Assembly: GCA_014762625.1 (NCBI GenBank)
Contig: JABURQ010000031.1
Location: 1-48,260, forward strand
DNA length: 48,260 nucleotides
Direction: 5' to 3'
DNA from: Planctomycetaceae bacterium
GTDB lineage: Bacteria > Planctomycetota > Planctomycetia > Planctomycetales > Planctomycetaceae
Shown here in pieces: positions 30,041 to 35,429 of the stretch. The position numbers were made by a program, and so were the translations under genes. Position 1 is the first letter of the stretch. Each line of letters begins with the position of its first letter. Below the pieces are notes generated by a model. That model saw only the letters and a program-made list of their open reading frames with translations. It had not been told where the DNA came from and ran no database searches.

Positions 30041-30351
30041 GGTGTCTCCTCGTGTTGCCTGGGTGTTTGACGGTGTGTGACTGATTGGAGTATGGAAAAC
30101 CAGCCTCTACGGTACACGGCGAGCATCGCGAAGCAATGAGAAATTGCGTTGGAGACCCATACTTTTTCACAAGACGGATCGCAACGACTGGGCCACAACT
30201 CGACTGATTATTTATTCGTTTGATTCGTGGTTGTATTGAAGCTCAAACAGAAAGGAAAAACCACGAATAGTTCGAATGACACGAATAAAACAAGGATCTT
30301 CAGCATCAGGCCATGTATGCTTACGTGCGCATTCTACAAAGAGGCTGAGTC
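30041..30351. other. Intergenic region holding hairpin repeat copy A
   Basis: About 311 bases between the oxidoreductase and GxxExxY genes. Apart from repeat copy A (30212-30287) I see no gene. The sequence is AT-rich compared with the flanking core genes. Confidence 0.6.
30212..30287. repeat. Long hairpin repeat, copy A
   Basis: Inner arms ATTCGTGGTT (30223-30232) and AACCACGAAT (30259-30268) are perfect complements around a 26-base loop. Outer TATTCGT (30213-30219) pairs with ACGAATA (30281-30287). It shares the unit TTATTCGTTTGATTCGTGG and the loop core AGCTCAA-CAGAAAG with copies B and C, and lies 64 bases upstream of the GxxExxY start. Confidence 0.85.
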
Positions 30352-30729
30352 ATGGCTGAGATCGTGTTCAAAGAAGAATCATTCCAAATCATGGGAGCTT
30401 GCTTCGAGGCCTATAACGAAATGGGTTACGGATTTCTGGAATGCGTCTATCAGGAATGTCTCTGCTTGGAGTTTGTCGATCGACGAATACCCTTTGCATC
30501 GCAGGTTGAACTTGATTTGAGATACAAACAAACGCCACTCTCTCAGAAATACATCCCTGATTTTATCTGTTTCGACTCGATCATCATTGAATTGAAATCA
30601 GCGCGTGAACTCTCGAATGCTCACCGCGCACAAATTCATAATTATCTGAAAGCCACGGGATACAAATTGGGACTTCTCGTGAACTTCGGCAGCCATCCCA
30701 AGCTCGAATACGAACGAATTGTGCTCTGA
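30352..30729 (+). CDS. GxxExxY family protein (PD-(D/E)xK nuclease-like)
   Basis: A 125-residue single-domain protein. The name-giving motif is G27-F-L-E30-C-V-Y33. A PD-(D/E)xK-type core follows: P69-D70, then E80-x-K82 (IIIELKSA) and Gln94 in the following helix (AHRAQIHNYLKATG), the usual constellation of the nuclease fold. The end reads LGLLVNFGSHPKLEYERIV, typical of the family. It has no signal peptide. Biological function is not established; the fold suggests nucleic-acid cleavage or binding. The gene is bracketed by direct-orientation copies of the same hairpin repeat, one ending 64 bases before the ATG and one starting two bases after the stop, which makes gene plus repeats look like a unit. 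Confidence 0.88.
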   Translation: MAEIVFKEESFQIMGACFEAYNEMGYGFLECVYQECLCLEFVDRRIPFASQVELDLRYKQTPLSQKYIPDFICFDSIIIELKSARELSNAHRAQIHNYLKATGYKLGLLVNFGSHPKLEYERIVL

Positions 30730-30731
30730 TA

Positions 30732-30808
30732 ATATTCGTGTTATTCGTTTGATTCGTGGTTGTCTCAAAGCTCAACCAGAAAGTAATCAAACCACGAATA
30801 ACTCGAAT
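30732..30808. repeat. Long hairpin repeat, copy B
   Basis: Starts two bases after the GxxExxY stop codon. Inner arms ATTCGTGGTT (30752-30761) and AACCACGAAT (30790-30799) flank a 28-base loop. It is nearly identical to copy C over about 75 bases and clearly related to copy A. It could also act as a transcript-end structure for the GxxExxY gene, although no T-run follows directly. Confidence 0.87.
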
Positions 30809-30920: not shown

Positions 30921-31508
30921 CTAATGCTCGAACCGAAGTAAATGAGTGCCTGCTTCCAGAGATTGACCATTTTTCAGATCGACCAGTTCGTCATTTTTAA
31001 AGATCTTTATATCTACGCCAGGATCTTTGGTGACAGGTATGGCGAGTGTATTTTCTAAAAGCATAAGACCATCACCTGATTTGGCTTGAAGGATTTCCAT
31101 GCTTGCAAATGACTTCGAGAAGTTTTCGTCATCGTAGATAATTTTGGCAGACAGGGTTGCAACGAGAGGTAAGCCCGCGATTCTTTTATCAGCAGAGTGT
31201 GTCTCAAAGCTTTTTAGAATGGGATCATCAAATTGTGTCCTCTTTTGCTTATTCTTCCATTCTGTGACGAGGCTAATTCTGCTGTCCAGCTGGTTATTTT
31301 CAGAGCTTTTCTTGTTGATGTGTATTTTGAACGTTACCCCTTCTGGTAACTCGGTTGGTGTTGCAGCATCATCAGCTGAGGAGGATGCACTCTTCTCAGT
31401 CGGCGAAGGAGAAGCTTGAGAAGCCGAGCAAGATGGCGCTGTGTTGAGCAATGCGCATGAGAGGGTTGCAAGAGATACAAACAGTAATAATTTCGATGCC
31501 GACTTCAT
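30921..31508 (-). CDS. Secreted hypothetical protein between hairpin repeats
   Basis: A 195-residue exported protein with a signal peptide (about 1-30, a hydrophobic core LLLFVSLATLSCALL; the Cys residues do not sit in a good lipobox). A Ser/Ala/Thr-rich linker (about 30-55) precedes a compact domain of about 140 residues that is beta-rich and ends LEAGTHLLRFEH. I do not recognise the family. The gene is AT-rich, lies between hairpin repeat copies B and C, and runs opposite to the GxxExxY gene. It may have arrived with the repeats. Confidence 0.65.
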   Translation of the reverse strand: MKSASKLLLFVSLATLSCALLNTAPSCSASQASPSPTEKSASSSADDAATPTELPEGVTFKIHINKKSSENNQLDSRISLVTEWKNKQKRTQFDDPILKSFETHSADKRIAGLPLVATLSAKIIYDDENFSKSFASMEILQAKSGDGLMLLENTLAIPVTKDPGVDIKIFKNDELVDLKNGQSLEAGTHLLRFEH

Positions 31509-31857
31509 AATTTCTACCCTGTTTCAGTAGATGCCGACAAGGCAAGTAATTGGTATCTTGAACAGTTCGTTCATATGTAATTATATTCAGGTAGTGAAGG
31601 CCGTAAGTCAAGAATATTTCATTTTCGAAGTCCATCGCGGGTATCTGTGACACGAATCGCCGCCAACTAAACTCTCATCAATTCGTGTTCTTCGTTTGAT
31701 TCGTGGTTGTCTCAAAGTTCAACCAGAAAGTAAACAAACCACGAATCACTCGAATATTGATTAAGTTGCGATCCCTTCGGAGCAGGCGGAAGGCCGATTG
31801 AGGAATGGTGTTCGTCGATTGAAACTCTTTCCAGTTTCGAATTGCTCACTTCTAACC
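31509..31857. other. Intergenic region holding hairpin repeat copy C
   Basis: About 349 bases upstream of the secreted hypothetical gene and downstream of the DUF1549/DUF1553 gene. It contains repeat copy C and, at 31648-31656, a short TGACACGAAT-like fragment that resembles the right end of copy A. I see no gene in it. Confidence 0.55.
31680..31755. repeat. Long hairpin repeat, copy C
   Basis: Inner arms ATTCGTGGTT (31699-31708) and AACCACGAAT (31737-31746) flank a 28-base loop that differs from copy B at only two positions. Same orientation as A and B; 948 bases from copy B. Confidence 0.87.
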
Positions 31858-35255: not shown

Positions 35256-35263
35256 TGTTTTCT

Positions 35264-35429
35264 TAACAGCCCGTTGAAAAACTCGATTTTGCTACGAATG
35301 GATTTTTGAGCTGAATCACATCGTCACAAATTCTCGCTGAATCATGGGATTCACCTGCGAATTTCTTCCTTGTGCTCATCTCAAAACTCTCATTCTCGCG
35401 GACAAATCCGTTTCTCAACACGCTGTTAG
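35264..35429. mobile_element. MITE-like element with imperfect terminal inverted repeats
   Basis: A 166-base segment with TAACAGCCCGTTGAAAAAC at the left (35264-35282) and GTTTCTCAACACGCTGTTAG at the right (35410-35429). The right arm reversed reads CTAACAGCGTGTTGAGAAAC, matching the left with three mismatches. It has no coding capacity and ends five bases from the stop of the zinc-ribbon gene. The left end recurs 11 kb away. It resembles the termini of IS-type elements and is most likely a non-autonomous or decayed copy. Confidence 0.6.

Follow-up and report, generated by a model that had tools for sequence, protein, structure and literature searches.

Genes for GxxExxY proteins, which have a PD-(D/E)xK nuclease fold, are flanked by arrays of a 7-base word far more often than control windows are, and the word that is iterated follows the protein encoded beside it. 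These observations are best read as a self-targeting nuclease and its cognate palindromes, which would work as the REP/RAYT system does but with an unrelated enzyme. This suggests an undescribed kind of mobile DNA, in which the enzyme would recognise its own address label.

We know of no established function for GxxExxY proteins. The present data give them a probable target, in the form of a predicted 7-base word for many members of the family. If the protein cuts its word, it would be a PD-(D/E)XK counterpart of REP/RAYT, the family would offer small nucleases that form a natural series, their graded specificity being readable from sequence, and many intergenic hairpins would have a single cause. 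Neither a report of GxxExxY genes with flanking repeats nor any of six literal array strings was found in the open-licence PMC literature, in which two papers name GxxExxY, each a single time, and the passage of PMC8934634 that names GxxExxY does so only in passing and does not carry the repeat association.

The window unit

The window is the whole stretch of DNA analysed, 48,260 nucleotides from a Planctomycetaceae bacterium, and its GxxExxY unit consists of a gene enclosed by two iteron palindromes, copies A and B, with a third palindrome, copy C, 0.9 kb further along (Table 1). The first-pass annotation had described A and B as repeats in the same orientation with exact 10-base arms around a 125-residue gene, and this description holds. 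The two copies are 89% and 90% identical over two ungapped pieces in the same orientation, and both contain the perfect arms ATTCGTGGTT / AACCACGAAT. In the whole window, ATTCGTGGTT occurs exactly at six sites, every one of them inside copies A, B and C, and with at most one mismatch at nine sites against 3.65 expected, a number that none of 100 shuffles reaches. The distances needed adjustment in part: copy A ends 62 to 64 nt before the ATG, depending on which end is taken (64 in the annotation), while copy B begins 3 nt after the stop codon rather than two. Copy C, as well as the 29-nt inverted repeat of 83% complementarity that the right arm of A and the left arm of B form directly around the gene, had been overlooked.

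Table 1. Features of the GxxExxY unit in the window
Feature	Position	Strand	Description	Basis
GxxExxY gene	30352..30729	+	125 aa, PD-(D/E)xK nuclease fold	PF13366 and TIGR04256 matches
Copy A, iteron palindrome	30211..30289	.	left arm 30211-30232, right arm 30259-30289	
Copy B, iteron palindrome	30733..30808	.	left arm 30733-30761, right arm 30790-30808	
Copy C, third palindrome	31681..31755	.		95% identity to B
Gene-enclosing inverted repeat, left member (right arm of A)	30259..30287	+		83% complementary to 30733-30761
Gene-enclosing inverted repeat, right member (left arm of B)	30733..30761	+		pairs with 30259-30287
195-aa ORF in the interval between arrays B and C	30921..31508	-		no Pfam family match

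The arms are themselves tandem iterations of words of about 9 bases, which in copy B read ATTCGTGTT-ATTCGTTTG-ATTCGTGGTT. The 7-base word CACGAAT is exact in copy A at 30262 and 30280 and, reversed, at 30223. Copy A forms direct repeats with copy B, and inverted-repeat pairs were also found. Folded as single-stranded DNA, all three copies do better than shuffled sequences (z -4.3 for A, -6.6 for B and -2.6 for C).

A comparison of copy A with the 6.23-Mb genome returned the three copies of the window and, beyond them, just two partial matches. With three full copies, the idea that this particular repeat forms a dispersed family in its own genome is not supported. The same genome contains seven GxxExxY matches, one of them partial, and several of these genes have repeats close by on both sides, with a sequence different for each; at least one locus (L006) has no such repeats. 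These differing repeats at genes of one genome moved the question from a single repeat to a class. The first-pass annotation had named GxxExxY genes without the repeat in relatives as a point that would count against its proposal. Relatives with GxxExxY genes that lack the exact window repeat do exist, but most of them have a version of the repeat of their own.

In both sister species examined, the window gene is present at the same locus and copy B is matched at the same place, and neither offers an empty site. Compared with the orthologue of a sister species, the gene is under purifying selection (dN 0.10 and dS 1.17 by NG86; 0.11 and 0.67 by YN00). One sister has three further copies of B, each accompanied by 6 to 60 nt from the 3' end of the gene. 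In a sister species, the interval from B to C measures only about 190 nt, compared with the 195-aa ORF found there in the window, possibly an exchanged interior. At a contig break, a sister orthologue is apparently interrupted by insertion-sequence-like DNA (L163, 3706-4039; L164, 1-162).

The encoded protein

The window gene is a clear member of the GxxExxY / PDDEXK_3 family, matching both PF13366 and TIGR04256 with E 6e-40 and scoring 136 bits against cut-offs of 35 (TIGR04256) and 22 (PF13366). The active-site arrangement proposed at first sight was confirmed: D70, E80, K82 and Q94, together with G27 and E30, are invariant among 27 aligned sequences, the window's included, and Y33 is conserved in at least 90% of them. 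In the AlphaFold2 model (mean pLDDT 95), the best structural match is the Cas4 protein SSO0001 with Z 9.7, the sole match above Z 8 among the matches listed. Below this level, where chance is possible and some non-nucleases occur, follow the restriction enzymes R.SwaI (7.7), BglII (7.1) and BamHI (7.0) and the Holliday-junction resolvase Hjc.

Hjc and T7 endonuclease I are Holliday-junction nucleases of the PD-(D/E)XK fold to which GxxExxY may be compared, with a similar fold (Z 6.7 for Hjc, below the level that excludes chance) and with the point in common that the palindromic targets of GxxExxY could extrude junctions. At the level of sequence, the only PDB matches are two entries of T7 endonuclease I, and neither reaches significance (E 0.55 and 0.73); to our knowledge, neither Hjc nor T7 endonuclease I is tied to repeats of its own. 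The window protein matches no defence family in PADLOC-DB 2.0.0 and no PHROGs entry. No relative of it was found in phage records, and 8 of 72,556 plasmid records contain one, all 8 predicted to be non-mobilizable.

Flanking arrays as a class

The association of arrays with GxxExxY genes was evaluated on 159 distinct genes from several phyla, a set enlarged by loci from other phyla (36 loci, 28 genomes and further stretches) and by more loci of the window's taxonomic family. Domain matches covering 80% of the profile were retained, and the removal of repeated proteins and of loci with a flank shorter than 80 nt reduced 184 instances to 159; the loci are mostly best-scoring search matches or close relatives of the window protein rather than a random draw. 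Within 200 nt on either side, the top 7-base word of the form CRCNNAN has at least four exact copies at 99 of the 159 genes and in none of 336 control windows, for which those of these loci that were of sufficient length served as the source. With at least three exact copies, the counts are 119 of 159 genes and 10 of 336 control windows, leaving 40 genes without three exact words. A flank-to-flank repeat score of at least 16 is reached by 116 of the 159 genes, a score without a control of its own in this set. In an earlier set of 58 instances (57 distinct, since the window gene was counted twice), it was reached by 46, compared with 4 of 202 control ORFs, all four of which have direct repeats, and 7 of 284 swapped flank pairs. 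The arrays are thus associated with the genes.

Unbiased counts of the top 7-mer return mostly the same words in the CRCNNAN form, including CACGGAG, CACGAAT (the word of the window), CACGAAA, CACAGAG, CACCAAG and CGCAAAG, some of them read from reverse complements. Among spacings counted from 7 to 12 bases, words follow one another most often at 9 (271), 8 (197) and 10 (59), and far less at 11 (16) and 7 (5). The nearest arrays on the two sides of a gene are oriented (+,-) at 65 of 119 loci, (-,+) at 22, (+,+) at 17 and (-,-) at 13, with two loci having an array on one side only. Opposite orientations on the two sides, as found at 87 of the 119 loci, mean that cruciforms could form.

The word tracks the protein

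The word that is iterated varies with the encoded protein. At the 119 loci with at least three exact words (the 40 others were left out), protein identity and the number of word mismatches are correlated with a Mantel r of -0.54, compared with a null standard deviation of 0.017 and a lowest value of -0.06 in 1000 shuffles, and an earlier set of 69 loci gave the same result. The same word is found in 22 of 25 pairs of proteins above 80% identity and in 6 of 1948 pairs below 35%. On a FastTree tree, at least 53 word changes are required, against 86 or more in each of 100 shuffles. Because word and protein are linked, part of this correlation is common descent. The nearest other protein below 75% identity predicts the whole word correctly in 39% of cases (7% by chance) and word position 7 in 91% (43% by chance); the rule that the neighbour must come from another genome was applied to L006-L062, and each remaining locus was treated as its own genome. 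CACGAAT itself recurs in four of the nearest relatives of the window protein, namely two Desulfobacterota, one Pirellulaceae MAG and a Stieleria.

Joint descent of linked DNA could by itself produce such tracking, but flanks with the words masked are no longer alike, so that conservation in the flanks resides in the words: among same-word pairs of 50-75% protein identity (up to 260 pairs drawn per class), 3 of 260 have similar flanks after masking, compared with 135 of 260 unmasked, the latter partly by construction. The genes might nevertheless be thought to lie in repeat-rich intergenic DNA by chance or hitch-hiking, with no functional link, given that the repeats are intergenic and that arrays of different kinds can be nested. 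The empty control count at the four-word cut, the restriction of flank similarity to the words, and the fact that the word follows the protein across phyla all speak against such an account, which is hardly credible.

By mutual information and identity-matched contrasts, word positions 4, 5, 7 and 2 vary together with residues 7, 10, 11, 14, 26, 48 and 65 of the protein; the contrasts draw attention to residue 26 and to four residues of the first helix (7, 10, 11 and 14; helix 7-24 in the model). A recognition code of single residues is no more than a lead, as none of seven contrasts was significant on the few phylogenetically independent pairs.

Gene-less arrays and change between close species

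Arrays also occur away from GxxExxY genes. A pattern restricted to the CCAC..AG class, which cannot match the window's own word, found 1308 array places in 101 genomes (overlapping places, of which there are some, being counted apart) compared with 12 for the reversed pattern, and many of the places are facing pairs among the matches listed. GxxExxY genes, which occur in several bacterial phyla overall, are present in 69 of these 101 genomes of the window's taxonomic family, and array places are found in 45 of the 69 genomes with the gene and in 9 of the 32 without it (Fisher p 6e-4, a value that ignores kinship). As to whether the repeats are equally common elsewhere, which the first-pass annotation had named as a point against its proposal, the answer is divided: their density is far higher at the gene, yet in array-rich genomes most places lie far from any GxxExxY gene, a distribution also typical of REPs.

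None of the nine array-bearing genomes without a TIGR04256 match passes the PF13366 cut-off either, and arrays in genomes without the gene include one complete genome with 37 places and another genome with 18. One genome scored as gene-less (G062) contains weak PDDEXK_3 fragments below the cut-off (L349, L355 and L357; E 0.01-0.7), two of them with stops; two of the fragments flank the one array listed for that genome, where perhaps the gene has decayed and left its array behind.

In one genome, 15 units have inverted ends of about 47 nt in common, and 97 of 105 pairs of their interiors are unalike, the search pattern having fixed part of the ends. Another word is found at two of the five GxxExxY genes of that genome, the two that were examined. 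The window's order of palindrome, gene and palindrome recurs in one genome with a different word (L197). Ten units of one species, chosen for having both arms listed, were compared with a second, close species (about 93% identical over the compared stretch): three units occupy the same site in both, and seven are absent, truncated or replaced in the second. The polymorphism anticipated for such units is therefore present, in a form that includes no clean empty site. One shared site carries the gene between the arms in one species and no gene in the other, a short stretch after the stop codon and the right half being common to both; hairpins without a gene can thus derive from units that contain one. 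Three sites were aligned, none of them a clean empty site, and they showed neither a target-site duplication nor a clean insertion. By reading, the cleanest absence retains a piece of the right end, so that deletion fits better than insertion.

The arrays could also be operators or RNA hairpins for autoregulation, with the dispersed copies moved by something else or serving as other binding sites. This would likewise yield a fixed pairing of word and protein, and it accords with the frequent location of arrays at a distance of between a few and some 60 nt from the domain start and with the GGAGG-like ribosome site that some words contain by reading. It fits poorly with the flanking of the gene by arrays at either end, including one past the stop codon, with the invariance of the active-site residues, with gene-less arrays at up to 264 places in one genome that has a single GxxExxY gene, and with the seven of ten units that differ between two close species. 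Autoregulation is accordingly regarded as unlikely, although it deserves some weight.

Proposed mechanism

We consider it rather likely that GxxExxY acts as a nuclease on its own arrays, recognising and cutting them and thereby driving their spread and homogenisation; binding, cutting and copying are inferred. Several observations weigh against this reading: orphan arrays in genomes without the gene, the 40 of 159 genes without three exact words, the small number of full copies of the window's repeat in its genome, the other word at the two genes examined in the 15-unit genome, and the absence of a clean insertion at the aligned sites. With its PD-(D/E)xK fold, the protein would recognise the 7-base word C-R-C-N-N-A-N, here CACGAAT, in arrays at 8-10 base spacing, and would most likely nick or cut the arrays that flank its own gene. 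Repair by recombination from another array would then copy and homogenise arrays of the same word. Such repair may also spread gene-less hairpins, and may swap or delete whatever separates two arms.

Comparison with known systems

The REP/RAYT system, whose features were taken from the parts of PMC2817692 and PMC8266576 consulted, is the closest in its working. As there, a small nuclease gene lies between palindromic repeats, in the window and in most relatives, cognate repeats are dispersed without the gene, and repeat and enzyme co-vary. The enzyme is different: GxxExxY is a PD-(D/E)XK nuclease without an HUH-tyrosine domain, as PF13366 is the sole domain match of the window protein and no histidine-hydrophobic-histidine motif appears on reading. 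The repeats differ as well, being arrays of a 7-base word at 8-10 base spacing. REP repeats are tagged at their foot by the tetranucleotides GTAG or CGTC (the tags named in the title of PMC3733652), and neither tetranucleotide is present in copies A, B or C by reading. The first-pass proposal of a repeat-nuclease unit analogous to REP/RAYT with a different fold has gained from the flanking-array statistics, the co-variation of word and protein, the dispersed gene-less arrays and the site with and without the gene; as the unit works like REP/RAYT but lacks the enzyme that defines that family, it is rated as a new kind and not as a member of REP/RAYT.

A related question is whether the arrays are REPs moved by Y1 (RAYT/IS200) transposases encoded elsewhere, with the GxxExxY gene as a passenger. 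Y1 transposase matches occur in 11 of 11 genomes checked, and, as a raw count, five such genes in two genomes lie 1.6-2.2 kb from an array. The Y1 transposases of array-bearing genomes have repeats of another sort, however. Of twenty matches examined, one lies so close to a contig end that its flanks are too short to test, and 18 of the 19 testable genes are flanked by repeats of their own within 350 nt; the test thus recovers a known repeat-enzyme pair. By reading, four printed stretches (L358, L359, L366 and L377) show Y1 genes with GC-rich flanking palindromes of their own and GTAG. None of the 20 genes has a three-word array within 1 kb. Since the identity of the word moreover tracks GxxExxY, the passenger account is very improbable. 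One Y1 transposase gene (L363, 3344-3688) has a (CAGGAGT)n heptamer array within its repeated flanks, which may be a further instance of nesting.

Miniature inverted-repeat elements (MITEs) and insertion sequences resemble GxxExxY units in that gene-bearing and gene-less forms have common ends. Unlike them, the GxxExxY unit has no transposase, and the interiors of most GxxExxY-type copies in one genome are unrelated; no target-site duplication was seen at the three sites mentioned above, none of them a clean empty site.

Four-helix-bundle S23 proteins (TIGR02436) provide a further parallel, as their small genes are likewise hugged by inverted tandem arrays and often occur in several copies per genome within the same taxonomic family. 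They belong to another protein family, and their arrays have a period of 7 rather than the 8-10 of GxxExxY. Genes of this kind are found in 45 of 61 genomes, and period-7 arrays flank 13 of 26 four-helix-bundle loci, compared with 1 of 284 controls; under the same strict cut, GxxExxY has 1 of 159 loci at period 7, 13 at period 8 and 26 at period 9. The words at four-helix-bundle loci of the same taxonomic family (L063-L092) include GGAGTTA, GGGTCAG and GAGGGGC. In one genome, GxxExxY-type hairpins contain period-7 arrays (TAGGCTG/TAGGCTT-like) in their loops (L290, L291, L292 and L299).

This parallel bears on the question of whether the GxxExxY unit is an element acting at the RNA level, like the intervening sequences of 23S rRNA, in which inverted arrays would pair in the transcript and be processed and the protein would act on RNA. 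The four-helix-bundle genes with their parallel period-7 structure belong to the 23S intervening-sequence family, tandem heptamers lie upstream of the S23 gene in the intervening sequence of Coxiella (in the part of PMC4990558 consulted), and RNA splicing endonucleases are among the Foldseek matches of the window protein, with E 0.03 and worse. The better structural matches are DNA nucleases, however, and the window unit lies between protein genes and not inside a 23S rRNA gene, the nearest recognised genes being GFO_IDH_MocA and PSCyt2/PSD1, one on each side. Furthermore, in 30 of 119 loci the nearest arrays have the same orientation and are unable to pair with each other, although farther arrays might. 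An RNA-level role is thus improbable, and a nuclease acting on its own DNA arrays is preferred.

Extending this preferred reading to both families gives a broader picture that is possible but held tentatively. GxxExxY nucleases would be the basis of a large class of palindromic mobile DNA in bacteria that is so far undescribed. Each lineage would have a private 7-base address, which the protein would read with its N-terminal helix and the residue just ahead of the GxxExxY motif (7, 10, 11, 14 and 26), and a change in the protein would be followed by a change of the address throughout the genome. The four-helix-bundle proteins with their period-7 arrays would form a second, unrelated class of the same logic, the arrays of the two nesting in each other. 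Such a parallel would carry the idea over to the S23 proteins of 23S intervening sequences.

Other repeats in the window

Two further sets of repeats lie in the window. A repeat of about 166 bases at 35263-35429 is matched elsewhere in the genome 27 times nearly in full and 8 times in part, at 89-99% identity, and is a separate high-copy family. Between 37433 and 40239 lie two inverted pairs, both long and imperfect (261 nt at 72% and 195 nt at 81%), perhaps two related genes facing each other.
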